Virus record (IMG/VR): IMGVR_UViG_3300031999_000162 | Coordinates: 1-27,689 of that record | Strand: one strand, 5' to 3' | From: a virus | Length of the DNA stretch: 27,689 bases | In this document: piece after piece, positions 6,913-18,400 of the stretch | Numbering within the stretch: the first letter of the stretch is position 1 | Layout: each line of letters opens with the position of its first letter | The notes under the pieces: generated by a model | Databases searched by the model: none | Told to the model about the DNA's origin: nothing | Seen by the model: only the letters and a program-made list of their open reading frames with translations | Made by a program: the position numbers and the translations under genes

Positions 6913-7788
6913 TCACCCCCTGGCCCTCGCCCACCGTGCCCCGTGCACCGTCCCCGCCGGCTGCCAACGCGCCGCCCTCGCTCGAAACCGCTCCGCGATC
7001 TCCATATAGTACTGCGCCTGCGTCAGATGCGCCCGGTACCCCGCCGACTCGGGCGCCCTACTCGCTGCCATATCGTGCAGCCAGTACAGCGCCCACGACG
7101 TCACGAACTCCACCGCCTCCCGCTCCGCCGGCTCCCCGATCCCCAGGCTGCTACTGTCCGCGGCCAACTCACTCAGCCTGGCCAGGTAATCCAGCCGCAG
7201 ATCGTCGTCGCTATCCACCCCGTCCAGGCTGTCGAAGTACAACACCTGCGGCGCGCCCGCCGTCCCCGCCACACGCCAGTTCCTGCCCGGCACCTGGCGC
7301 CAGGCCTCGTCGCTCGCATTCCTCACCCACACCGCCAGCACCCGCACCAGCCCCGCCGGCAGATTGTACTCGTAATCGTCGGCCACCAGCGTCACCGTCG
7401 TCGTATCCACCACCTGCGTCAGCCACGTCTCCCCCGCCGCCCGGATCCCCGCGTTGACCGCGGCGATGACGTCCTCTCGTTTCGCCGGCAGCAGCTCGTA
7501 CGTGTCCCCACTGGCCGGCGCTGCCGTGAACGCCGGGTCCACCGTCAGCGTCGCCGTGCTCTGCACGAAATCCGTCACCGGCCGCTCCTCCGCCTCCGGC
7601 GCGGCGTGCGCTCCACCGGCGTCCGTCACAATGTACAGGTGATGCCCGATCCAATAGTCGTTTGGCTCGTACAGTTTCGCCGTGTCAGCCAGCGTCGTCG
7701 TGCTCCCGCCGGTGGCCGTCGAGCGCCGGTACATCCCGAACCGTCGCGCCACCTCTCCCACCAGGTCAGCCCGTGTCTTCGCGGTCAT
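6913..7788 (-). CDS. Virion structural protein, possible head-tail adaptor
   Basis: A 291-residue protein with a short N-terminal helix (residues 1-25), a beta-rich region (about 30-100, including 'YWIGHHLYIVTDAGG' and 'TLTVDPAF'), a helix (about 103-122), a second beta region (125-200) and a helical C-terminus (about 225-285). I have seen this general make-up in phage adaptor or connector proteins, but I cannot assign a named family. It lies between a metalloprotease and the 965-residue virion protein. The start at 7788 has GGAGG about ten bases upstream and overlaps the metalloprotease gene by 23 bp, so the two are probably translationally linked. The overall virion role is fairly safe; the adaptor role is a guess from context. 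Confidence 0.55.
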   Translation of the reverse strand: MTAKTRADLVGEVARRFGMYRRSTATGGSTTTLADTAKLYEPNDYWIGHHLYIVTDAGGAHAAPEAEERPVTDFVQSTATLTVDPAFTAAPASGDTYELLPAKREDVIAAVNAGIRAAGETWLTQVVDTTTVTLVADDYEYNLPAGLVRVLAVWVRNASDEAWRQVPGRNWRVAGTAGAPQVLYFDSLDGVDSDDDLRLDYLARLSELAADSSSLGIGEPAEREAVEFVTSWALYWLHDMAASRAPESAGYRAHLTQAQYYMEIAERFRARAARWQPAGTVHGARWARARG

Positions 7789-8116
7789 AGTTGTATCGCC
7801 TCCAATCCAGCAGGTCCCCGTTGTCTCGCATCACCCCCAGCAACCCGTAGGCCAGGACATTGACCAACTGCTCATCGTCCTTCTTATCCAACTCCGCTTG
7901 ATTCATCAGCGTGTGGATGATCTCGTGCCATAGGGTGTGGTACTGCTGCTGGTAACCAAGGTTTGCCTCGATCTCGATCCGGCATGGGCCGTGTAGCACC
8001 TGCCCCCACATCTGCTTGCCGTCTTCGTCTCGCAGGCCCGTCACCTCGATGATGGTGTATGTCACCGGCCCGATCCGGATCGCCTGCGGTAGCCTTCTCA
8101 CGTCATCTGTTGACAT
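7766..8116 (-). CDS. Small HExxH zinc metalloprotease-like protein
   Basis: A 116-residue protein. The N-terminal half is a small beta sheet ('IRIGPVTYTIIEV', 'CRIEIEANLG'). Residues 64-68 form HEIIH, followed by 'TLMNQAELDKKDDEQLVNVL', in which Glu82 or a nearby acid could be the third zinc ligand. The size and the helix-HExxH-helix order resemble compact phage/ImmA-like (M78-like) or SprT-like peptidases. ATG at 8116 has GGAGG nine bases upstream. The gene appears less GC-rich than its neighbours, so it may be a late arrival in the operon. It could mature or release a virion protein, or act on a host protein; neither can be decided from sequence. The start codon overlaps the -35 box of an opposing promoter. 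Confidence 0.7.
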   Translation of the reverse strand: MSTDDVRRLPQAIRIGPVTYTIIEVTGLRDEDGKQMWGQVLHGPCRIEIEANLGYQQQYHTLWHEIIHTLMNQAELDKKDDEQLVNVLAYGLLGVMRDNGDLLDWRRYNYDREDTG

Positions 8117-8138
8117 AAACGCTGACCTCCGTTATAAT
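8110..8138 (+). promoter_or_regulatory. Perfect-consensus sigma70 promoter facing right
   Basis: TTGACA lies at 8110-8115 and TATAAT at 8133-8138, separated by exactly 17 bases. Both hexamers match the consensus at every position. Transcription would start near 8145 and run against the late operon. The -35 box covers the start codon of the metalloprotease gene (minus strand), and its Shine-Dalgarno site lies in the spacer. No real plus-strand gene follows, only a structured gap and then the antisense of the sulfotransferase gene. Confidence 0.8.
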
Positions 8139-8144
8139 GAACAC

Positions 8145-8260
8145 GGTACCACGCGAGGATGACCCGCGCGCGTGAGGGATAGCCCGGCCATTTGGAACCC
8201 TACCCGCTGAAGGGTTGTGGCCCCGACAGGCCCGCCGGTAAATCCCCCGGGTCACTCCTC
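8145..8260 (+). ncRNA. Candidate structured small RNA downstream of the consensus promoter
   Basis: This gap folds by hand into nested Watson-Crick stems: 8155-8166 with 8248-8260 (12 pairs, one bulged C at 8255), 8176-8180 with 8242-8246 (5 pairs), 8186-8190 with 8218-8222 (5 pairs) and 8196-8201 with 8211-8216 (6 pairs, 9-nt loop). A competing 6-bp hairpin, 8150-8155 with 8169-8174, would break the outer stem. A seven-codon micro-ORF (8159-8182) sits at the 5' end, but its GAGG is too close to the ATG to be convincing. I do not recognise an RNA family, and I see no U-tract terminator, so the 3' end is unknown. Because all pairs are Watson-Crick, the structure could also form in the late mRNA; the promoter is what points to the plus strand. 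Confidence 0.45.
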
Positions 8261-8969
8261 ATCTCACCACCACCTGCTCGACCGCACCTTCCACCAACCC
8301 GGCGTCTGCCTCGACGAACTCTGCCAACCCGCTGACCACTTTCCGCGTCGTCTCTGCCCGCACCAACTCCTCGAACTCCACCGTAATGCACGGCACATCC
8401 GGGTGATCGCCCAAGAATTGCAGCGCTCTCAGCTCGTACTCGTGGATCAACGCCGCCCACCGGTCGTTCGCCCACGTGGCCATCTCCGCCAGGCCCGCGT
8501 CTTCCTCCCCCGTCTCCACCGCCAGCGCCGAGGCCTCCCGCGCCCGCTTCGCCAGCGACTGCAGCATCCCCCACTGCGAGCGCACCGTCCGCACGATCCG
8601 CACGTCCTGGACCCCTACCTGCCGGATCGCCTCCCACCACACCGGCATCGTGATCGCCGTCCGTGGATCCTTCCACCCCCACACCCCGCGCGCCCGCTCC
8701 TTCCACCTCACGATCTGCACCATCTGTGGAATGAACCACGCCCCCACCTCCCTGATCCGCGTCGCCTCGGGTGGATCCCCCCAGTGGCCACCGGCTGCGT
8801 GCACCAACTCCACGTTCACGTCGAAGAAATCCACGTCCTCATAGTACCCCTGCGGATTCCACTGGTTGGCCTCGAATAGGCGGTCCCCCATGTTCACACC
8901 CAGGTGGTGCAGCACGTTGGCCACCGCACTCGTCCCCGAGCGGTGCATCCCCAGCACGACCACGATCAT
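8259..8969 (-). CDS. Sulfotransferase family protein
   Basis: A 236-residue protein starting at the ATG at 8969, which overlaps the stop of the upstream gene (ATGA) and has AAGGTGG upstream. It opens with the PAPS-binding P-loop-like motif GMHRSGTS (residues 7-14). KDPR follows at 100-103 and 'RTVRSQWGMLQSLAKR' at about 127-142, the usual place of the 3'-phosphate-binding R...S and following Arg. 'VEFEELV' at about 197-203 matches the conserved 'YEDL' region. These are standard features of PAPS-dependent sulfotransferases, which move sulfate to sugar or other hydroxyl groups in the cytoplasm. It shares a cassette with a glycosyltransferase and a methyltransferase, suggesting modification of a glycan on the virion or the host surface. 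The acceptor is unknown. Confidence 0.85.
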   Translation of the reverse strand: MIVVVLGMHRSGTSAVANVLHHLGVNMGDRLFEANQWNPQGYYEDVDFFDVNVELVHAAGGHWGDPPEATRIREVGAWFIPQMVQIVRWKERARGVWGWKDPRTAITMPVWWEAIRQVGVQDVRIVRTVRSQWGMLQSLAKRAREASALAVETGEEDAGLAEMATWANDRWAALIHEYELRALQFLGDHPDVPCITVEFEELVRAETTRKVVSGLAEFVEADAGLVEGAVEQVVVR

Positions 8970-9328
8970 CCCGCCACCTTGCGCTCGCTCATCGCCGCCG
9001 CCACCCCCTCCGGCGCCCGCACCGTCAGCACCCTGTGCCAGGGGATGAACGTATACTCGGGATCCTGCCCCTGCCCCTTCAGCCAGAACCCTTCCTCGAT
9101 CACCGACCTTACGAACTCCGCTGCCTCTGCCGCACCCGGGAGATGGAACACCTCCTCCCGGATCGCCGACGCCAGCCCCCACTCGAACGCCACCGTCACG
9201 GCCACCGTCGCCAGCGCCACCGGCTTCAGCAAGAGCTCCTTCTGTGCTCGAGTCAAACCCGGCTCCCTCTTCGGCTTCACCACCACCACCCGCGGTCGGC
9301 TGTCTGCCGTCGCCTTCTCGTCACCCAT
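8966..9328 (-). CDS. Small protein of unknown function in the modification cassette
   Basis: A 120-residue protein. I chose the ATG at 9328, which has GGGGAG before it and lies 10 nt after the upstream stop; an earlier in-frame start (9355) would run into the upstream gene. The N-terminus is basic, the middle has a hydrophobic Ala/Val/Leu-rich helix (about residues 37-62), and the C-terminus has 'EYTFIPWHRVLTVRAPE', which reads like a small beta-domain. I recognise no family. Its stop overlaps the start of the sulfotransferase gene, so the two are probably translated together. The N-terminus contains KATADSR, encoded by a 21-nt element also found near 11144-11164. Confidence 0.6.
   Translation of the reverse strand: MGDEKATADSRPRVVVVKPKREPGLTRAQKELLLKPVALATVAVTVAFEWGLASAIREEVFHLPGAAEAAEFVRSVIEEGFWLKGQGQDPEYTFIPWHRVLTVRAPEGVAAAMSERKVAG
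9297..9317. repeat. Dispersed 21-nt element, copy 1
   Basis: The plus strand here reads CGGCTGTCTGCCGTCGCCTTC. A copy with one mismatch lies at 11144-11164 in another gene. Both are in the same reading frame of their genes and encode KATADSR. The sequence has the CNGCNGT-like rhythm also seen at 15120-15147. Confidence 0.5.
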
Positions 9329-9338
9329 CCCTCTCCCC

Positions 9339-9614
9339 CTACTCGTACGCCACACTGACCGTCGCGCCCGACCCGCTCAGCGTCGCATAGATCCCCACCG
9401 CGAAGTAGATCGGCGGATCGAACGTCACACTGTCCCCCCCGCCGGTGGGCGCTGCCATCTTCCACTTGTTCGTCCCACTCCCCGCCACGCTATCGTCCAG
9501 GATCACCGTCCCCGCCGCTGCCGCCCCGCCGGCCAGACTGATCGCGTGCACGAACCCGGGCCCCGCCTTCACCGCCCCCGTCGCATCCAAGTACTTTGCT
9601 ATCGCACTACGCAT
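9339..9614 (-). CDS. Small beta-rich phage protein, unknown function
   Basis: A 91-residue protein. I chose the third in-frame ATG (9614) because AGGAGG lies 6 nt upstream; the ATG at 9620 is directly against that site, and the one at 9629 has nothing comparable. It overlaps the end of the methyltransferase gene by 8 bp. The sequence is Gly/Ala-rich with alternating polar and hydrophobic residues ('GTVILDDSVAGSG', 'DSVTFDPPIYFAVGIYATL'), typical of a small beta-sandwich. Proteins like this often appear among phage structural genes, so a minor virion or decoration role is possible. Nothing links it directly to the enzymes on either side. Confidence 0.6.
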   Translation of the reverse strand: MRSAIAKYLDATGAVKAGPGFVHAISLAGGAAAAGTVILDDSVAGSGTNKWKMAAPTGGGDSVTFDPPIYFAVGIYATLSGSGATVSVAYE

Positions 9615-10161
9615 CTCCATCCTCCTCATCTTTCTTATCGTTCATTTCCCTATCCGTGGTTTTCACCCCCACCACGTACACCTGCCGGGCGATCACCTCG
9701 TGCTCCTTCCCCGCCCCATCCGTCCCCACCATTCGATACGGCCCCAGCCGCGCCATCTTCGCCTTCAGCCCTGCCGCGGCTAGCACACTGCGCAGCAGCC
9801 CCACCGTGAACCCGCTGCGGTGCACCCGCTCTCCCTGGCCGTAGATCACCCCAAGGGTGAACCGGTCTGCCTCGTGCTGCTTCGCGATCTGCTCACACGC
9901 CCAGGCCAGGTCCGGCACCACCAGGTGCAGCTCCCCCCCCTCCCGTAGCCAGCCCACCCAGCACCGTACCGCTTCCACCACCTTCGCCCCCTCCACCAAC
10001 TGCAGCACGTGGCTGGCCAGCACCGCATCGTATGGCGCTTTTCCACTGGCCTCACTGATCGGTTCGTCTACCGCCCAGCCCACGATCTCGGCCCCGGGCC
10101 ACACCTCACCCGCCACCCCCTCCTGCCCCCCGCCTGGCGCGACGATCTCCAGCACCCTCAT
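9607..10161 (-). CDS. SAM-dependent methyltransferase-like protein (COG4627-like)
   Basis: A 184-residue protein. ATG at 10161 comes 1 nt after the glycosyltransferase stop. The class I methyltransferase outline is visible. The N-terminal 'MRVLEIVAPGGG' takes the place of motif I but is degenerate (no G-x-G-x-G). 'GWAVDE' gives the acidic residue after motif I, 'YDAVLASHVLQLVEG' matches the 'YDxIxxSHVLEH' of this family, and 'WLREGGELHLVVPDL' is the motif V region. A later 'YGQGERVHRSGF' matches the family's conserved 'G....H..GF'. Such enzymes often travel with glycosyltransferases in phage and polysaccharide clusters. The weak motif I means binding of SAM should be tested. A heptamer repeat just upstream could bring this gene into frame with the glycosyltransferase. 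Confidence 0.65.
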   Translation of the reverse strand: MRVLEIVAPGGGQEGVAGEVWPGAEIVGWAVDEPISEASGKAPYDAVLASHVLQLVEGAKVVEAVRCWVGWLREGGELHLVVPDLAWACEQIAKQHEADRFTLGVIYGQGERVHRSGFTVGLLRSVLAAAGLKAKMARLGPYRMVGTDGAGKEHEVIARQVYVVGVKTTDREMNDKKDEEDGDA

Positions 10162-10162
10162 C

Positions 10163-11029
10163 CTACCGTTCCCCTTGCTCATTCTCCATTCTCCATTCTC
10201 CATCCTCGCCCATCTGCGCCCGCACCGCCGCGTAACTCCCCAGCGTATCCTTCACGTCCTGGAACCGTTGCCGCGTCGTCGGCTCCGTCCCCACGTGCTG
10301 GCACTCCACCGCCGTGTCCACCGCGATCCTGAACCCACACCGCAGCGCCATCTCGCAGAAGAAATGATCCTCCGTCCGCCCGTGCTCGAACGCATAGAAC
10401 GGCCACTCCTCCGGCTCCACCGGCCCGGCGATGGGCTCCACCACGTACCCCCGCACCTGGCCCGGCCCCATCACCACCCCAGGCTGGAGCGGCTCGCCTT
10501 CCCGCATATCCTCCCGGTGCACCGCCACGAACGTCCCGTTGCTCACCCGGCCGTATACCCGGTACTGCTCCTGGATCGTCGAGAACACCCGCTCCCGGAT
10601 CAGCGTGCACCCCATCCCCACACTGTCCACGTACACGATCTCCCCCGGCTCGAACCTGGCCAGCGGAATGTACAACCCGTTCGGCCTGCGCTGATAGGCG
10701 ATCGGATTGAACGGCGCGCTGCGCGAGTAATAGATCCCCGCCGCCACCTCGCACGCCCCCACCTCCAGCAGGTCCACCAACCACTCCACCGCTCGCGGAG
10801 GTGGAATCGTATCGTCGTCAATGAACCACAGCGCCTCACTGTCCCCGGCATCCAGGAACGTGGCCACCACCTTGTTGCGGTTATAGTCCGTCAGCGCCGA
10901 CCCGATCACGATGAACCGCTCGATCTCCACCTTCCCCCGCCGCTCCAGCGCCAGCAGCTCCGGCATCAGCGTGGACCACCACTTCTGCTCCTGGTTCTTA
11001 TTCGCTGCGATCCCGACGTCAATCTTCAT
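10163..11029 (-). CDS. GT-A fold glycosyltransferase (family 2-like)
   Basis: A 288-residue protein from the ATG at 11029, 2 nt after the upstream stop. It begins with a short strand and 'IAANKN'. The metal/nucleotide-binding DxD is 'WFIDDDTIPP' (Asp71-73). 'VDSVGMGCTLIRE' (about 134-146) is the usual acceptor-side glycine motif, and 'TEDHFFCEMALRCGFRI' (Glu220, Asp221) holds the likely catalytic base. 'ECQHVG' (His245) fits the third metal ligand of GT-A enzymes. It should transfer a sugar from a nucleotide-sugar to a cell-surface or virion acceptor. With the adjacent methyltransferase and sulfotransferase it forms a small modification set. The last residues are encoded by a triplicated heptamer, so the C-terminus may vary. 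Confidence 0.8.
   Translation of the reverse strand: MKIDVGIAANKNQEQKWWSTLMPELLALERRGKVEIERFIVIGSALTDYNRNKVVATFLDAGDSEALWFIDDDTIPPPRAVEWLVDLLEVGACEVAAGIYYSRSAPFNPIAYQRRPNGLYIPLARFEPGEIVYVDSVGMGCTLIRERVFSTIQEQYRVYGRVSNGTFVAVHREDMREGEPLQPGVVMGPGQVRGYVVEPIAGPVEPEEWPFYAFEHGRTEDHFFCEMALRCGFRIAVDTAVECQHVGTEPTTRQRFQDVKDTLGSYAAVRAQMGEDGEWRMENEQGER
10181..10201. repeat. Triplicated heptamer at the glycosyltransferase/methyltransferase junction
   Basis: The plus strand carries three exact copies of ATTCTCC in tandem (GGAGAAT on the coding strand), followed by a degraded fourth. The tract lies in the last codons of the glycosyltransferase gene. Because 7 is not a multiple of 3, a change of one unit changes the frame. 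Loss of one unit removes the present stop from the frame and joins the two genes; gain of one unit leads to an early TGA. Confidence 0.75.
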
Positions 11030-11031
11030 CT

Positions 11032-11379
11032 CTAGTCCACCGCCGGCGTACCGTCCCCCTCCACCACCTCGACGCTGTCCGCCCCGATCCGCTCCCTCAA
11101 CTGCTCCAGCGTCAACCCCGGTTCTTCCTCTGCCGCCGGCTGCCGGCTGTCCGCCGTCGCCTTCAGCAGGTCCTCGCACAACTGCAGCGCCCCGCTCACC
11201 GCGTTCAGATTCGCGATCACCTGGCCGCGCTCCTGCTGCAACTGCTGCCCCTGCCGGTCAATCTCCACCAGCCGCCGGTCCAACTCCTGCCCCTGCCGCT
11301 GCAGCGCCGCCTTCCTCTGCTCGATCACTCCGCTCTCCACCCCTGCCATTCTCCGCCTCGCCTTCCTCCGCTTCCTCAT
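11032..11379 (-). CDS. Coiled-coil protein of unknown function
   Basis: A 115-residue protein. I chose the ATG at 11379, which has GGAGG at a spacing of five bases; the ATG at 11349 (MAGVESG) is a weaker alternative. The N-terminus is strongly basic (RKRRKARRR). Residues about 15-65 form a Gln/Arg/Leu-rich coiled coil (QRQGQELDRRLVEIDRQGQQ), and the C-terminus is acidic, with 'TLEQLRERIG' as a further helix. It resembles small phage assembly or tail proteins in character, but no family is recognisable. It precedes the glycosyltransferase gene by 2 nt. Confidence 0.6.
   Translation of the reverse strand: MRKRRKARRRMAGVESGVIEQRKAALQRQGQELDRRLVEIDRQGQQLQQERGQVIANLNAVSGALQLCEDLLKATADSRQPAAEEEPGLTLEQLRERIGADSVEVVEGDGTPAVD
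11144..11164. repeat. Dispersed 21-nt element, copy 2
   Basis: Identical to the element at 9297-9317 except for one base, and again encodes KATADSR, here in the linker between the coiled coil and the acidic tail of the host gene. Confidence 0.5.
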
Positions 11380-11433
11380 CCGTTCCTCCGATCCACATCG
11401 CATGGGGGCAGGCGTCACCGCCCGCCCCCTCTC

Positions 11434-11628
11434 CTACACGTCCTTCTCGATGACACGCACACTCACCGTCACCGTCCACACCTTTCCCGTAGGGACGATC
11501 GCATCCAAGATCTCCTCACCCTTAGGTGACGTTTCGATCTTCAGATGCTTCCCCGCCGTCACTTGGAACGTGCCATCTCCGTCCTTCCGTACCTCGTGCA
11601 GCGTCGAGTCCACCAGCGTAATTGCCAT
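11434..11628 (-). CDS. Small beta-rich phage protein, unknown function
   Basis: A 64-residue protein with alternating hydrophobic residues throughout ('GTFQVTAGKHLKIET', 'KVWTVTVSVRVIEKDV'), as expected for a small beta barrel or sandwich. ATG at 11628 has GGGGGTGAG before it and follows the upstream stop by 15 nt. The position shortly after the capsid and decoration genes suggests a minor head or head-completion protein. No family is recognised. Confidence 0.6.
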   Translation of the reverse strand: MAITLVDSTLHEVRKDGDGTFQVTAGKHLKIETSPKGEEILDAIVPTGKVWTVTVSVRVIEKDV

Positions 11629-11643
11629 CGCTCACCCCCGCCC

Positions 11644-12447
11644 CTACTCGTTCGTCACCTTCGCCGCCGTAAAGATCGGGATATAGTACGTCGTGCCGCC
11701 CACGTCCAGCTTCAGCAGCCCGTCTGCGTTCACGTCGTGCGACGTCTCTCCCGCCACCGTCGAAGTGATCTTGACCCCGTCCTCGTAATCGGTGCCGCTG
11801 CCGAACCCGATCACCACGTCGCAGCCGTCCACGTACAGCGCCATCGGCCAGTTCGCCCGCGTCGGGTGCGAAGCGTTCACGTGCGCCACGAACGCCGCGA
11901 TCTTGCCGTTGTTCGTGAACCCGCTGGTCAGTATGCTGTCGGCAACGAACGCGCCCATGATCCCCGTGTTGGTCACCGTATCCGCGTCCGACATCAGCGT
12001 ACCCACCACCGACCCCATATAGCTGCTCGTGCTGGCCGGCCCCGTGAACGTCCCCGCGATCTCGATGTGTCCCCACACCGCCCCGGCGTTGCCCGTGCCC
12101 AGTGCCGTGGTCCCGGTAAAGTACAGCTCGTTCCAGTTCGCGAACACACTCACGTTCCCCGTCTGCGCCGCCGTGCACGCCAGTTGATGGTAGGCCGCCG
12201 CGTACGCACCACTCCCCAGCGCCGCGTTGATCCGCCCCGCCACCTGGAACACCATATCCGGGTCCGTGCCGTTCAGCAACACGCCCGTTGCGCCCACGCC
12301 CCAGTCGTGCGCCCCAAACCGCGCCTTGCTCTGCAGGTAGAACTCTGCCACGTCCGACCCCAGCCCCGTCGCCGCCTCCCCACGCAGGCGTTTCACCCAG
12401 GGACAGAAGTCAGCCGGGTCATACTTCGATCTCGTTCCGCTACCCAT
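11644..12447 (-). CDS. Probable head-decoration or head-fibre protein
   Basis: A 267-residue protein that follows the major capsid gene. The N-terminal ~60 residues are charged ('YDPADFCPWVKRLRGEA', 'AEFYLQSKARFG'). The rest is rich in Gly/Thr/Ala/Asn with beta-strand periodicity, and the C-terminus ends in 'DGLLKLDVGGTTYYIPIFTA', a pattern common at the ends of phage surface and tail proteins. The start ATG (12447) has AGGAGG eight bases upstream. The position right after the capsid gene supports a role on the capsid surface. This is inferred from place and composition, not from a recognised family. Confidence 0.55.
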   Translation of the reverse strand: MGSGTRSKYDPADFCPWVKRLRGEAATGLGSDVAEFYLQSKARFGAHDWGVGATGVLLNGTDPDMVFQVAGRINAALGSGAYAAAYHQLACTAAQTGNVSVFANWNELYFTGTTALGTGNAGAVWGHIEIAGTFTGPASTSSYMGSVVGTLMSDADTVTNTGIMGAFVADSILTSGFTNNGKIAAFVAHVNASHPTRANWPMALYVDGCDVVIGFGSGTDYEDGVKITSTVAGETSHDVNADGLLKLDVGGTTYYIPIFTAAKVTNE

Positions 12448-12471
12448 CTCTGTATCCTCCTGGTTGATTCA

Positions 12472-12497
12472 GAGGGCGATCCACGTGGACCGCCCTC
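12472..12497 (-). terminator. Hairpin between the capsid and decoration genes
   Basis: GAGGGCG (12472-12478) pairs with CGCCCTC (12491-12497) around an inner palindrome TCCACGTGGA, with one mismatched pair between them. There is no U-tract in the late mRNA after it, so it may be a partial terminator, an mRNA-stabilising 3' end or a processing site that keeps capsid message high. CCACGTGG occurs again at about 12507-12514, which allows a competing pairing. Confidence 0.45.
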
Positions 12498-12518
12498 GTC
12501 ATCCACCCACGTGGTTCA

Positions 12519-13646
12519 TCAGCTCGTCGTGCTGATGGACTTCATAAACCCGTGCGCCTTCCCGTTCTTCACCACCAGGCCATACTCCCCTACCACCTGG
12601 CCCTTGGTCGAGTCGCCCGTCTTGGCCAACTCTTCCTGGAAGAAGGGATCGAACGCCACGAACCCGATGTACTGGCTCTCCACCACGTACAGCTTCGCGC
12701 TCGGGCACCACCGGCTCATCAAGATCTTCAACACACCGAACTCCGTCTCGACCTCGCTGATGGTCACCCCGCCGCGCTGCTCGTCCCGCGTGGTCCGCAC
12801 ACTGTCCGCGTAGAACCCGCTGATCTTCCGCTTCACCCACGAATTGCAGATGATCAGGTCCGGATTGCCTCCGTCGCTCCAGCAGTCCTGGACCAGGTCC
12901 TCGAGATCCTTCTGCACCAGCGCCGCGCTGGCACCCGACTTCGTGTTGTTCGTCGCGAACGTCTCCAGCCCGCCGAACGCCCGCGGCGCCGTCGCACTGC
13001 CGCTCTTGCGCTGGCCACGGAAGAACGCCTTCTCGATCAGCCGGCTCAGCTCCGGGATCTTCTTCGCTGCCTGATAGTCGAACTCCTCGGCGATCCCGTA
13101 CTGGCTGATCTTGTTCCCCGACCGCGTCACCTTCACGTCGTCCTGGAAGATCTGCGTGTGATTGTAGGGGGCCACGATGTCGCTGAACGCCCGCTCGTAG
13201 TCCGCGTCCGCCCCTTCCAGTCGCGCGTGGTTGATCAGCGTGATGGTGGCCGCCGAGGCGTGCGTCGCCTGCGTCCCGCCAAAGTTGCGGGTCACCGTCA
13301 CCTTGTTGTCCGTAGCCGAGGCGTCGCTGATCCACATCATCTCTGCGTCAATCTCGATGATGTCCCCCGTCTTGTGGATCGAGCCGTCCGTCACACTGAG
13401 CGACGTCGCGTTCGTCGTGCAGCTCGCCGCCAGCGTATCCGTCAGCCCGGCCAGCGTATCCTCCAGCCACTCGATTTTGGTTCCTGGCCAGTTGACCAGC
13501 CGGAACTTGCCGCTGTCCCCGTCCAGGCCAAAGTACGACACCACCGGCGTGTCACGCGGATCTATGATGTCGATCAGATCCGCGATGACCCGCTTCTGTG
13601 CAGTCGTATCCGAATACGTAGTCTTGGGTTGATCTGAAACTGCCAT
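12519..13646 (-). CDS. Major capsid protein, SU10/DUF5309 type (HK97 fold)
   Basis: A 375-residue protein. The N-terminus 'RVIADLIDIIDPRDTPVVSY' is the characteristic start of the SU10-like major capsid family. Residues about 70-140 form the inserted beta domain ('SLSVTDGSIHKTGDIIEI', 'KVTVTRNFGGTQATHASA'). 'IFQDDVKVTRSGNKISQYGI' and the following 'EFDYQAAKKIPELSRLIEKA' helix give the long spine region, and the C-terminal part ends with the axial-domain-like strand 'GEYGLVVKNGKAHGFM'. The gene follows the scaffold gene by 53 nt, with GAGGTG upstream of the ATG at 13646. Order scaffold then capsid is the usual one. It forms the icosahedral shell; no protease is visible nearby for a maturation step except the HExxH gene downstream. 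Confidence 0.88.
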   Translation of the reverse strand: MAVSDQPKTTYSDTTAQKRVIADLIDIIDPRDTPVVSYFGLDGDSGKFRLVNWPGTKIEWLEDTLAGLTDTLAASCTTNATSLSVTDGSIHKTGDIIEIDAEMMWISDASATDNKVTVTRNFGGTQATHASAATITLINHARLEGADADYERAFSDIVAPYNHTQIFQDDVKVTRSGNKISQYGIAEEFDYQAAKKIPELSRLIEKAFFRGQRKSGSATAPRAFGGLETFATNNTKSGASAALVQKDLEDLVQDCWSDGGNPDLIICNSWVKRKISGFYADSVRTTRDEQRGGVTISEVETEFGVLKILMSRWCPSAKLYVVESQYIGFVAFDPFFQEELAKTGDSTKGQVVGEYGLVVKNGKAHGFMKSISTTS

Positions 13647-13699
13647 CTCACTTCACCTCGTAAGAGTGTGTGTGACGGCTGTCTCCTCGCATCCTGCTA

Positions 13700-14449
13700 C
13701 TAGACATCCAACCCCTGCTTGCGGTACTTGGACTTCAGCCGCGCGTACGCGCCGACGTCACCCGTATGCCGCAACTTCGCCTTCTCCGCCTCGAACTCTG
13801 CCCGCAGGTCCCGAGGCCCAGCCGTCCCCGTTGCCGTGCTGACCTTCGTCACGCCGGCCTGCGTCAACGCTTCCGTCTTCGCCGCCTGCGTCGCGTCCGC
13901 CACCACGGACTGTTGTTGTTGTGTCAACACCTGGGCCTGCAGCGCCTTCACCTTCGCTGCGCTCGTCGCCAGCCGCACCAACCCTTCTGCCGATGGCTCG
14001 TCCCCCCAGTCCAGCCCGGGCGTGTTCGGCTCGATCCCCAACTCCTGCAGCAACTCCTGCGCCTTCGTCACACACCGTTCGCGCTCGCTCATCGCTGCCT
14101 CGCGTTGGCGGGTCTCCGCCTGCAACCGTCCGATCTCAGACTGATAGTACTGCGCCACCTGCTCCGGGTCTGCGTCCTTCAACTGCGCCTGCGCCATCTG
14201 GCGCTGCATCTCCTGCATCTGTCGCTGCGTCTCCGCCATCTGCTGCCGCAACTGCTCCGCTTGCCTATCGCGGGCAGCCTGGTACTGGCGAAACTCCGGT
14301 AACTGCGACAGATCAACCTTCTTCTCCGCCGGGGCTATCGGCTGCGGAGTCTCGGCTGTCGGCTGCTGGCCGGCAACGGCTCCCTCGCCTGTCGCCTGCC
14401 CTGCGCCAACTCCTGCACCCTGCTTGTCCAACTCCTCGGTCATCTTCAT
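13700..14449 (-). CDS. Capsid scaffolding protein
   Basis: About 249 residues. I use the ATG at 14449; a GTG at 14455 and an ATG at 14443 are alternatives within six bases. The N-terminal ~50 residues are disordered (Gly/Ala/Gln/Pro). Residues about 55-145 form a Gln-rich coiled coil ('RQMQEMQRQMAQAQLKD'). The C-terminus is a short basic helix 'VGAYARLKSKYRKQGLDV', the pattern scaffolds use to bind the capsid protein. It lies directly upstream of the major capsid gene, as expected. It would form an internal core during head assembly and then leave. A structured gap of about 130 nt separates it from the preceding gene. Confidence 0.75.
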   Translation of the reverse strand: MKMTEELDKQGAGVGAGQATGEGAVAGQQPTAETPQPIAPAEKKVDLSQLPEFRQYQAARDRQAEQLRQQMAETQRQMQEMQRQMAQAQLKDADPEQVAQYYQSEIGRLQAETRQREAAMSERERCVTKAQELLQELGIEPNTPGLDWGDEPSAEGLVRLATSAAKVKALQAQVLTQQQQSVVADATQAAKTEALTQAGVTKVSTATGTAGPRDLRAEFEAEKAKLRHTGDVGAYARLKSKYRKQGLDV

Positions 14450-14583: not shown

Positions 14584-15078
14584 CTACGCCTTGTAGCGCC
14601 GGGCCTCGACTCGCTTCGCCCGCACCGCCTTGCTGATCACTGTGTAGGTCACCTGCGATGCAAAGTAAGCCACGAATCCCAGACGGATCGCCATCACGAC
14701 CCCGTCCTTGCCACACGCCGGGGGCTTCACGCCCAGAGTGATACCCGCGCATCCCAGCCCCACCAGCGCCAGCGGAATCAGCAGGCAGCCGACCAGGAAC
14801 ACCAACCGCTTCCACGTATCCCCGACCGTCTGCCACTTCTGCGCCAGCCCGGGCACCACCTCCAGCGCCAGCGATATGATCCCGGCCATCACCGCCGCGA
14901 TGATCTCCGCCGACAACTCCGGGTCTTCCTCCTGCTGCACCTGTGCTGCCACCACCGGCCCACCACCTGGCGCCGCCAGGGGTGAGACCGTAGGCTCCGG
15001 TCCCTCGCACCCGACCAACACCAGCACCAGGGCGATCAGCACGACCGCCGCCATCACTATGCCTTTCTTCCTCAACAT
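14584..15078 (-). CDS. Lipoprotein-like multi-span membrane protein, holin candidate
   Basis: A 164-residue protein. I chose the ATG at 15078 because AAAGGAG lies at ideal distance and the product then starts with a clean signal: 'MLRKKG', a hydrophobic stretch, and a lipobox LVGC (Cys24). A Pro/Ala/Gly-rich linker with 'SPLAAP' follows. Three hydrophobic segments come next (about 57-75, 92-112 and 126-148), and the C-terminus is basic (RAKRVEARRYKA). The three-span part with a basic tail resembles phage holins. A lipobox in front of it is unusual; it could be a real lipid anchor or simply a first membrane helix with a Cys. Its position between the giant virion protein and the scaffold gene is uncommon for lysis genes. 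Confidence 0.6.
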   Translation of the reverse strand: MLRKKGIVMAAVVLIALVLVLVGCEGPEPTVSPLAAPGGGPVVAAQVQQEEDPELSAEIIAAVMAGIISLALEVVPGLAQKWQTVGDTWKRLVFLVGCLLIPLALVGLGCAGITLGVKPPACGKDGVVMAIRLGFVAYFASQVTYTVISKAVRAKRVEARRYKA

Positions 15079-15095
15079 CTCGAACTCCTTTCCGT

Positions 15096-15119
15096 AAGTG
15101 TATCGGACCTGATATACTT
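15096..15119. other. 9-bp hairpin in the gap upstream of the lipoprotein-like gene
   Basis: AAGTGTATC (15096-15104) pairs with GATATACTT (15111-15119) around a six-base loop. One position is G-U on the plus strand but a C/A mismatch on the minus strand. It lies just upstream of the Shine-Dalgarno site of the lipoprotein-like gene. Its function is unclear. Confidence 0.35.
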
Positions 15120-15147
15120 CCGCCGTCCGCCGTCTGCGGTCAGCGGT
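15120..15147. repeat. Four tandem degenerate heptamers
   Basis: CCGCCGT, CCGCCGT, CTGCGGT and CAGCGGT follow one another (consensus CNGCSGT). The tract overlaps the last codons and stop of the small coiled-coil gene. It resembles short repeat tracts I associate with GC-rich environmental bacteria, but this cannot be tested here. Confidence 0.5.
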
Positions 15148-15331
15148 CACTCCCTCTACTCAGCAGCCCACTCAACAAATTGCCCAGTCGCTCCATTAGG
15201 CCCGCCGTCTCGGTACTATCCCTCAGCATCTTCTCCGCCCGCGCGATGTGCTGCTGCGCTCGCTCCACCCGCTCCGCCGCCCCCGCCCGATCCGGCTGCT
15301 CCTTCTGTTGATCCTGCCTCTCCTCGCTCAT
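15140..15331 (-). CDS. Small charged helical protein, unknown function
   Basis: A 63-residue protein that is almost all helix: a Gln/Glu/Arg-rich start (EERQDQQKEQPDRAG), then an amphipathic segment 'AERVERAQQHIARAEKMLRD' and a short Leu-rich helix 'LMERLGNLLSGLLSRG'. ATG at 15331 has a purine-rich G tract upstream. Placement after the giant virion protein and before the holin candidate does not settle a role. It may be a small assembly factor or a lysis accessory. Confidence 0.55.
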   Translation of the reverse strand: MSEERQDQQKEQPDRAGAAERVERAQQHIARAEKMLRDSTETAGLMERLGNLLSGLLSRGSDR

Positions 15332-15351
15332 CCCCTACATTCCCCCATATC

Positions 15352-15406
15352 CATCCGCGTTCATCTGCGTTTGTCACCCGGTGTACTCACCGGCTTCATC
15401 CGCGTT
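15352..15406. repeat. Three decamer repeats around a hairpin
   Basis: CATCCGCGTT occurs at 15352-15361 and 15397-15406, with the variant CATCTGCGTT at 15362-15371. The second and third copies flank a short perfect hairpin. The whole cluster fills the gap between the giant gene and the small helical gene. Confidence 0.55.
15378..15393 (-). terminator. Short hairpin downstream of the giant gene
   Basis: CCGGTG (15378-15383) and CACCGG (15388-15393) close a four-base loop, about 22 nt after the stop of the giant gene in the late mRNA. There is no U-tract, so this is at most a weak or partial terminator. Confidence 0.35.
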
Positions 15407-15414
15407 CCCGTCCC

Positions 15415-18400
15415 CTAATACTTCGTCCGCCACTTCCCGACGATCCATGGCACTCCCTGCGCCCGGTACGGCTTCGCGTACTCCTTCTTCGGCCCCCACG
15501 GCGACACCCGCTCCATGAACACCTTCGGCGTCCATTGCGCCTGCCTCTCGAACGCCCACGGCACCAACCCCTTCTTCTTCCCCTTCCCCTTCTTCTTGTA
15601 GTACCGGCGAGGGCGTGGCACGTACGCCGCCCGCGCCTTCTTCCCCCCCGTCGTGTACGTGGCCACCGCTGCCCCGCCCGTCCCCTTGCCCTGATAAAAG
15701 TACGCCCACACCTCGTGTCCCCGCGCCGCACCCCACTCATCCCGCAAGTCAAAGTACTGCCCGATCTCCGGATGCTTCAGCTTGAACGTCTTCCGCTCCC
15801 CGGAGGACAGCGCATAATACCGGTCGAGCAAATCCTGCACGTTCTCCCCCACCTGCTCCTTCACCGCCTGGTTGAACGCATCGTTCTGCTCCCGCGCCTG
15901 TGTCCAATCCGCTGCCGACAGCCACTTATCCGGGTCCTCGTTCTCCGCCCGCCACTGCTCCAGCCACTCCAACGCCTTCTGGTACTGCTCCGCCGTCGCG
16001 GTGCCCCGCGTCTCCGCATCGAGCGCCAGCTTCACCAGCGTATTCTCGCGCGCCCCCTGCCCCATCCGCCCCGGTGGCAACTGCTCGTTCAAGAAATCCC
16101 AGAACGCAGAAGAGGCCTCCGACAGTGCCCGCTCCTCCGGCGGCTTACGCAACGTCGCCGCCTCCGCCACACCCGGGAACGTCATCCCCGCCACCGCGGC
16201 GCGCAACTCCTCCGCCGTCCACCGGCCCGGGTACATCTTCTCGATCTGCCCCACCAGGTCGGCCCCCTTCACCTCACCCGCCCCCTCCACGTACCGCTCG
16301 TACGCCTTCCCCTTCTCCATCCCGCCCTCGACCGCCTGATTGTACGCCTCCCACGCCGGCCGGTACACCGTCTCCTCCCACACCCGCTGCGCGGCCTGCG
16401 TCGGCCGGTCGTTCCTGCGCCAATACTGCTGCACCGCCGCCTGGTCCACCCCCGCCAGCAACTCCGCCGGCGTCGCCCCCATCTTCCCGGCGATGGCCAC
16501 CAGCGCCGCGTTCCCTTCCATCCGCGCCGGCAACTCCTGGAAAAATGCCGCCACCGCCGCGTTGTATGCCTCGTAATCCGGCTGCCCGTTCGCACCTGCG
16601 AACTGCGCCACCCGTGGCATCGCCCCACTCACCGCACCGAGGACCTCTTGCTGCCGGATCTGCGTCACCTCTTCCGGCCGGGCCCCGTACACACTGCGCG
16701 GCTGGTACCCCGCCCCCTCCTCCGCCTGCTCCGTCAGCCCCATCCGGTCCCGCAACTGCTCCAACTGCGCCCGCTGCTGATCCTGCAGCTCCTGGATGCC
16801 CGCCCGGTTCCACGGCTCCCGCCGTGCCAGATCGTCCATCTCCTGCGCGTATTCCCCCTGGATGCGGTCCCGCTGGGTACGATACTCGTTGTAGCGCGCT
16901 TGCTCCCCCGGCGTCGTCCCCGTGAACTCCGCCGCCCCGGGCAGTGCACTCCCTGCCAGCCGCCGCGGTACCGTCTCCGGATGCGCCGCCCGCCACGCTT
17001 CCAACCCGGCCCGGCTGCCCATCCCCGTCAACGGCGAGTACTGCGTCCCCCGCTGCTCCCGCTCCAACTCCAACTGCCGTCTCTCTCCGGAGGGGAACAT
17101 CGCCAGCGTCACCCCGCCCGCGAACGACGACCCCGCCCGCAGCCCGCGCTCCAACCCCGCCCGCTGCACCGCCGTCTGCAGCAGCGTCTGCGCCTGCAGC
17201 ACCTGCGGCTCCGACCAGCCCTGGTCCCGCGCGATTCTCAGCACCGCGTCGCTGGCCACCGGTGGACCTACCCGCCCGCTCTCCCAGCCCATCGCCTCGT
17301 TCAAGCGCAACTGCCCCGCCTCCACCAATCGCTGCAGTTCCTGTGCTCGGAGTGCATCCTGCGAAATCTCCGGGTTGTCCGCGGACATATTGGCCAGCAT
17401 CCGGTTCACCCGGTACGCCTGGTACGGTTCCTGCTCCGGCATCCCCACCATCCGTCTCACCGGCGCCTCGATGTTCACCCCACCCGGGGCCCCAATCCCT
17501 GCCGCTGCCGTCGCCGCCTGGATCGCCCCCGTGTGCGGCAACACGAACCCCATCTCCTCCCGCTTCCCGATCCAGTTGAAATACTGGAGTGGCCACTCGA
17601 TGAACCCATACGGCCGTAGTCCCACCTTCTGCCCCACCCGGTACAACATCTCCACCAGGTTGCGCGCCGGCTCCTGATCCTCGATCTCCGTCCCCATCCC
17701 CGGCAACTGCGAGAACGGCAACAACAACCGCGTCGGATCGAAGAACAACGCCTGCCCTGTCCAGGCCGGCATCCCCTTCACCGGCACCTCCACCATCCCT
17801 TCGAACCGCGCCCGGTAGCCCCGCTCCGCGCTCGTCCGTTCGATCGCCTGCCGGTACCGTGCATACTGCGCGATCACCCCCGGCCGTTCTGCTGCCCGCA
17901 ACGCCCAGTTCCTCGCCGAGCGGGTCATCCAATACGAGTACGGGCACACCGTACTCAGCCAATTGTCGAACCGCTTCCGCCCGCCGGCATAGTCCAGCAC
18001 GCTAAAGTCCGCCCCCTGCCGCGCCATATCCACCGCGACGGTCCGTGCCTCCGACCACTGCCGGGTCAGGTCTGTCTTCGCCCAGCGCTCCAACTGCGCC
18101 TGCACCTGTGGCGGTACCGGCCCCGCCTCCCCTGCCACCGCCCACTCCGTCCGTCCCCACGTCCGCACGTCCTCCAGCGCTGCCAGCTCGCGCTCCGCCA
18201 TCACCTGCGCCATATCCGATAGAGTGGGGGGCATCGCGTATCCGCCCGCTGCCGCTGCCCGCCGGTCCGCCCGGGCGACGTCGTCCGTGTGCCAGGCCGA
18301 CCACGCCGTGTCCACCATCGCCTTCTGCCCCTGCGTCCCCGCTTCTATCACGGACCGCGCCTCGTCCCGGGCGCGCCGTGCCGACGTCCAATCGTCGTAC

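Follow-up and report, generated by a model that had tools for sequence, protein, structure and literature searches.

Phage noncoding RNAs are mostly known from enterobacterial model phages. The packaging RNA of phage phi29 has paired ends and a three-way junction. For the c4 antisense RNA of phages P1 and P7 (RF01695), function depends on secondary structure (PMC12197685, PMC2864571). The put RNA of phage HK022—a folded RNA located just after an early promoter—suppresses intrinsic and Rho-dependent termination in cis (PMC9378689), and STnc6030 of the Salmonella prophage BTP1 is antisense to late genes and excludes the same phage (PMC7067206).

Here, comparative genomics, including an out-of-sample check, points to a compact structured RNA that fits no known family and occurs in uncultured phages, probably of Chloroflexota. 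The window—the whole stretch of DNA that was analyzed, 27.7 kb—is the virus record IMGVR_UViG_3300031999_000162. Its virion genes, which encode an SU10-type major capsid protein, a terminase-like protein, and tail proteins, lie on the minus strand throughout, and a promoter-plus-RNA cassette is carried in reverse within this operon. The locus bears the following features:

7766–8116, minus strand: 116-aa late gene (phrog_1233) encoding an HExxH motif and overlapping the −35 box with its start codon
8110–8138, plus strand: sigma70-type promoter, TTGACA at 8110–8115, 17-nt spacer, TATAAT at 8133–8138, 12 of 12 hexamer positions
8145–8260, plus strand: putative structured noncoding RNA of ~116 nt, its start placed from the −10 box and its end from conservation
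8259–9182, minus strand: sulfotransferase-like late gene, whose end abuts the RNA

The gap between the two minus-strand genes spans 8117–8258 and holds the −10 box of the promoter and most of the RNA. The 116-aa HExxH protein (7766–8116) looks zinc protease-like; phrog_1233 is of unknown function, and a search against Pfam gave no significant match for the protein.

As the preliminary description had stated, the promoter is exact at 12 positions on the plus strand. It is the sole TTGACA-17-TATAAT match in the window, and a chance match is very unlikely: shuffled sequences hold 0.01 such matches on average, and only one in 100 had any. The earlier impression that no plausible plus-strand gene starts at this promoter was also borne out. 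From the position of the −10 box, the RNA is predicted to start at ~8145.

Protein-based scans of viral contigs yielded three related records that share the phage backbone of the window: IMGVR_UViG_3300031669_000110 (L002, L004, L008, and L012), 3300031539_000513 (L007 and L011), and the more divergent 3300013130_000001 (L005 and L014). The element at window positions 8101–8271 is 88.8% identical in the first and 81% in the second. For L005, the element appeared absent at first, and a promoter scan then revealed a divergent copy of the RNA after an exact TTGACA-16-TATAAT, which has a different spacer and sits in the same interval and orientation. Hence, taking TTGACA, 16–18 nt, and TATAAT as the definition of a sigma70 promoter, all four genomes (window, L012, L011, and L005) carry one with 12 of 12 hexamer positions, and in all four records it points opposite to the late genes. 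The L012 and L011 promoters keep the 17-nt spacer length with 7–8 of its 17 bases changed. Since the −35 box of L005 does not overlap a coding start, the conservation of this box is not a by-product of coding.

The flanking genes behave differently. The metalloprotease-like phrog_1233 gene is replaced by other genes in 3300031669_000110 and 3300031539_000513, and the gene on the other side also differs in the latter—the sulfotransferase-like gene is absent from the corresponding place in L007 and L005. This indicates that the element is kept independently of its neighbors. More generally, the genes between capsid and tail adaptor (window 8259–12500 and the counterparts in L007, L008, and L005) are exchanged among relatives; the exchanged genes—sulfotransferase, glycosyltransferase, epimerase, and metalloprotease-like—form an island of cargo genes in the late operon that surrounds the RNA.

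The structure was predicted by RNAalifold from the three close sequences, without information from L005, and consists of five helices on the plus strand:

8145–8154, plus strand: unpaired 5′ leader GGUACCACGC, of which the part GUACCACG is invariant in all four sequences
8155–8166, plus strand: 5′ strand of helix P1 (12 bp), pairing with 8248–8254 and 8256–8260 around a bulge at 8255
8176–8180, plus strand: 5′ strand of helix P2 (5 bp), pairing with 8242–8246; two covarying pairs
8184–8188, plus strand: 5′ strand of helix P3 (5 bp), pairing with 8234–8238; two covarying pairs
8196–8216, plus strand: hairpin P4 (6 bp), 8196–8201 with 8211–8216; two covarying pairs
8202–8210, plus strand: P4 loop, the conserved 9 nt ACCCG[C/G]UGA
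8219–8232, plus strand: hairpin P5 (4 bp), 8219–8222 with 8229–8232; two covarying pairs
8248–8260, plus strand: 3′ strand of helix P1

P1 connects both ends of the conserved stretch; three of its pairs are changed on both sides and one is changed to U·G. The stems that had been folded by hand (12, 5, 5, and 6 pairs) are P1–P4 of this comparative structure, whereas the fifth hairpin P5 had been missed. As P5 adds to P1–P4, the RNA forms a three-way junction. In the P1–P5 fold, the ACCCGCUGA loop is predicted to be unpaired. Besides the leader and the P4 loop, a junction GU belongs to the conserved unpaired parts.

L005 provides the out-of-sample check. Fitted to its sequence, the structure has all 32 pairs canonical, seven of them with both letters absent from the other three sequences; when an equal number of changes was placed randomly, at most 28 of the 32 pairs were kept in 20,000 trials. 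Across the four members, which amount to two or three independent lineages, all 128 paired cells are canonical and 11 of the 32 pairs are changed on both sides, at least two in every helix. None of 500 shuffles reaches this, and sliding the partners by 1–3 columns leaves 0–1 such pairs. A covariance model built without L005 finds the L005 copy at 69 bits with an E-value, rough as such values are here, of ~2e-14, the next match having an E of 4; in the three related whole records, a covariance search returns one copy each. The preliminary description had named uncompensated changes of hexamers and paired bases in related phages as grounds against the RNA, and the outcome is the opposite: the promoter is kept and the pairs are compensated. 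Comparison of the four phage genomes thus confirms an RNA fold preserved by matched mutations.

This covariation also bears on whether a small protein gene or a DNA site, such as an origin or a packaging site, explains the conservation in place of an RNA gene. The element is indeed conserved at the sequence level, and one minus-strand frame is open across it in all four genomes. Its codon changes among the three close sequences are, however, mostly nonsynonymous (6:2, 10:1, and 9:3), no minus-strand ORF of at least 50 aa is listed at the element in L005, and stops in the plus frames fall at differing places among the sequences. There is no skew change at the element that would speak for a DNA site. 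A small ORF on either strand was hence rejected, as the changes follow pairing and not coding; the protein or DNA-site explanation is largely refuted by the covariation and very improbable, and the RNA is apparently noncoding.

The strand on which the structure acts calls for a separate consideration, since the complement folds about equally well, and 126 of the 128 cells are pairable on the minus strand too, compared with 128 of 128 on the plus strand. The structure might then work within the late mRNA as a leader controlling the next gene, with the plus-strand promoter being incidental or serving interference only, and such a role would suit the place of the element shortly before a ribosome-binding site in the window, L008, and L007. 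Against this stand the 12-of-12 promoter in four genomes—in L005 even without a coding-start overlap—two wobbles that are compatible with the plus strand only, and a downstream gene that varies (116 aa, 74–75 aa, and 80 aa). We regard a minus-strand leader as distinctly improbable and favor the plus strand because the promoter and the two L005 wobble pairs fit it; the strand call rests on these two features. The 80-aa protein that adjoins the RNA in L005 (15860–16102, plus strand) shows a weak match to a RyR domain (E 0.01).

Thermodynamic stability does not single out the element. For a 124-nt stretch, the folding energy of −49.2 kcal/mol corresponds to a z of −1.31 (17 of 200 shuffles are as good), and its complementary strand gives a nonsignificant z of −0.85; on neither strand is the fold more stable than that of shuffled sequence. 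The minimum-free-energy comparison with shuffles, which had been proposed as a check, is thus unremarkable, and support for the structure comes from covariation and not from energy, as the single-sequence fold is no better than chance. The minimum-energy folds of the window and L012 depart from the consensus inside P2. For L005, an alternative fold is predicted to be 9 kcal/mol better than the conserved fold, which may be an artifact of prediction or reflect a genuine switch in the L005 phage; in this copy (15682–15797, minus strand), the alternative corresponds to a GAGUGG/CCACUC hairpin inside P1. A competing hairpin had also been noticed in the window, between CACGCG (8150–8155) and CGCGUG (8169–8174). 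Its six pairs are possible in three of the sequences, but it is poorly conserved: L005 has a G·A mismatch and a U·G pair inside it, and none of the four sequences shows a compensatory change in it.

Further members were sought well beyond the four records. Rfam 15 gives no match at gathering thresholds, in agreement with the earlier remark that no known RNA family is recognizable; its models—c4 RNA, phage pRNA, ribozymes, and riboswitches among them—yield sub-threshold matches only, on the minus strand. Neither seven more distant phage records nor Chloroflexota prophage loci gave a detectable copy above chance in covariance searches. The viral motif scans returned the same records and three chance matches, the motif pattern in GTDB genomes returned 22 matches that are all chance-like, and blastn of the phage collection and a pattern search of 400 genomes of the probable host phylum (that of an Anaerolineae MAG) returned none. 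The RNA model found no copy in four whole bacterial genomes among 150 candidates scored per genome, which constitutes weak evidence of absence because of that number of candidates. Within the phage, no convincing base-pairing target of the P4 loop or the leader was seen.

The phage group is probably temperate, since a large serine integrase is encoded in a related record; it matches phrog_95 (E 5e-56) and has Resolvase, Recombinase, and Zn-ribbon domains. The integrase lies at 14870–16438 (minus strand) of L077, and the phage collection gave no match for it. The related records hold two more near-perfect promoters, at L079 19025 (minus strand; 12/12) and at L077 17395 (plus strand; 11/12), near the record end and away from the virion genes; the one at L077 17395 precedes a short reading frame for a helix-turn-helix-like protein. 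The hosts are probably Chloroflexota, as judged by the distribution of the tail adaptor and by the capsid neighborhood of L100. Of 400 genomes in the phylum of the Anaerolineae MAG, 20 match the tail-adaptor profile, versus 0 of 396 in the phylum of Actinokineospora, and L100, one of the 20 positive genomes, encodes a 40% identical capsid protein in the same neighborhood. This prophage relative (L100 ~9700–14400) bears the capsid protein, the adaptor, and a glycosyltransferase.

Sequence conservation stops at the P1 end (8260) or shortly after, and for kilobases beyond the element, the RNA strand shows no terminator-like site above chance. C is abundant and G scarce in the RNA that follows (C 62–72 and G 25–35 per 150 nt), and Rho acts on RNA of such composition. 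With moderate confidence, we favor a temperate-phage gene for a discrete noncoding RNA that host RNA polymerase transcribes during lysogeny or early infection and that is then trimmed to its closing helix; transcription, 3′ end, timing, and partner are what we infer within this best explanation. Host RNA polymerase would initiate at the consensus promoter near 8145 without needing a phage factor, which would place its synthesis in lysogens or at an early stage of infection. The transcript would then fold through the long closing helix P1, followed by P2, P3, and the three-way junction with P4 and P5. Given the C-rich, G-poor composition downstream and the lack of an intrinsic terminator, transcription would probably end in a Rho-dependent manner, with 3′ exonucleases trimming back to P1. 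The leader part GUACCACG, the P4 loop ACCCGSUGA, and the junction GU are likely contacts of a protein or RNA partner. Since the RNA gene lies in reverse within the late operon, its full complement is part of late mRNA, and the RNA should thus be neutralized once late transcription begins.

Antisense control of the neighboring genes, one of the initial ideas, fares less well. Gene-specific control of the metalloprotease is ruled out by geometry: the RNA start lies beyond the ribosome-binding site and start codon of this gene, and transcription runs away from it, so that it cannot be the target. The sulfotransferase is unlikely to be a conserved target, since a different gene occupies its place in L007/L011 and L005 with the promoter and RNA remaining.

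A covariance model, a start-site prediction, and defined base pairs come with the discrete RNA that we favor. It also suggests that RNA genes can hide on the opposite strand of late operons, in which usually only proteins are looked for. Among known systems, the packaging RNA of phi29 resembles it in size, paired ends, and three-way junction, and differs in that our RNA has no Rfam match and the window phage has a terminase-like large subunit; conserved loop–loop complementarity is not seen by eye. The c4 and lambda OOP RNAs are likewise small phage RNAs (PMC12197685, PMC2864571), with known antisense targets and a location in immunity regions, in contrast to the late-operon location, the lack of a found target, and the lack of an Rfam match here.

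The lack of a terminator keeps two further explanations alive. Resembling STnc6030, the RNA would run against late genes, starting at a predicted site of its own in a probably temperate phage; with no terminator seen, it could extend over these genes. The element might then make up the 5′ portion of an antisense RNA that would base-pair with late mRNA and shut out superinfecting relatives, the fold serving only as a stabilizer. STnc6030 is, however, predicted at >700 nt, seen at ~500 nt, and pairs with late mRNA, whereas here a compact intergenic fold is conserved and the antisense part is not, neighboring genes change, and 11 covarying pairs seem more than a simple stabilizer needs. This makes an exclusion RNA rather unlikely.

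The other explanation, also unlikely, places the structure at the 5′ end of a long antisense transcript as a cis-acting module. By analogy to put, it would bind its own polymerase, suppress termination, and drive transcription for kilobases through the head genes, keeping the late operon silent in the lysogen. If true, this would be a new phage RNA class acting in cis on RNA polymerase—an antiterminator structurally unrelated to put. In both systems, a folded phage RNA directly follows a promoter and possibly acts on RNA polymerase (PMC9378689); no intrinsic terminator lies downstream, and transcription points against the late genes in every relative, though this orientation is one inherited fact in the four. 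Yet, nothing is conserved downstream of the element, and put, which belongs to early operons, has two stem-loops within ~70 nt, whereas the RNA described here is a ~116-nt three-way junction, closed by a 12-bp helix and set against late genes.
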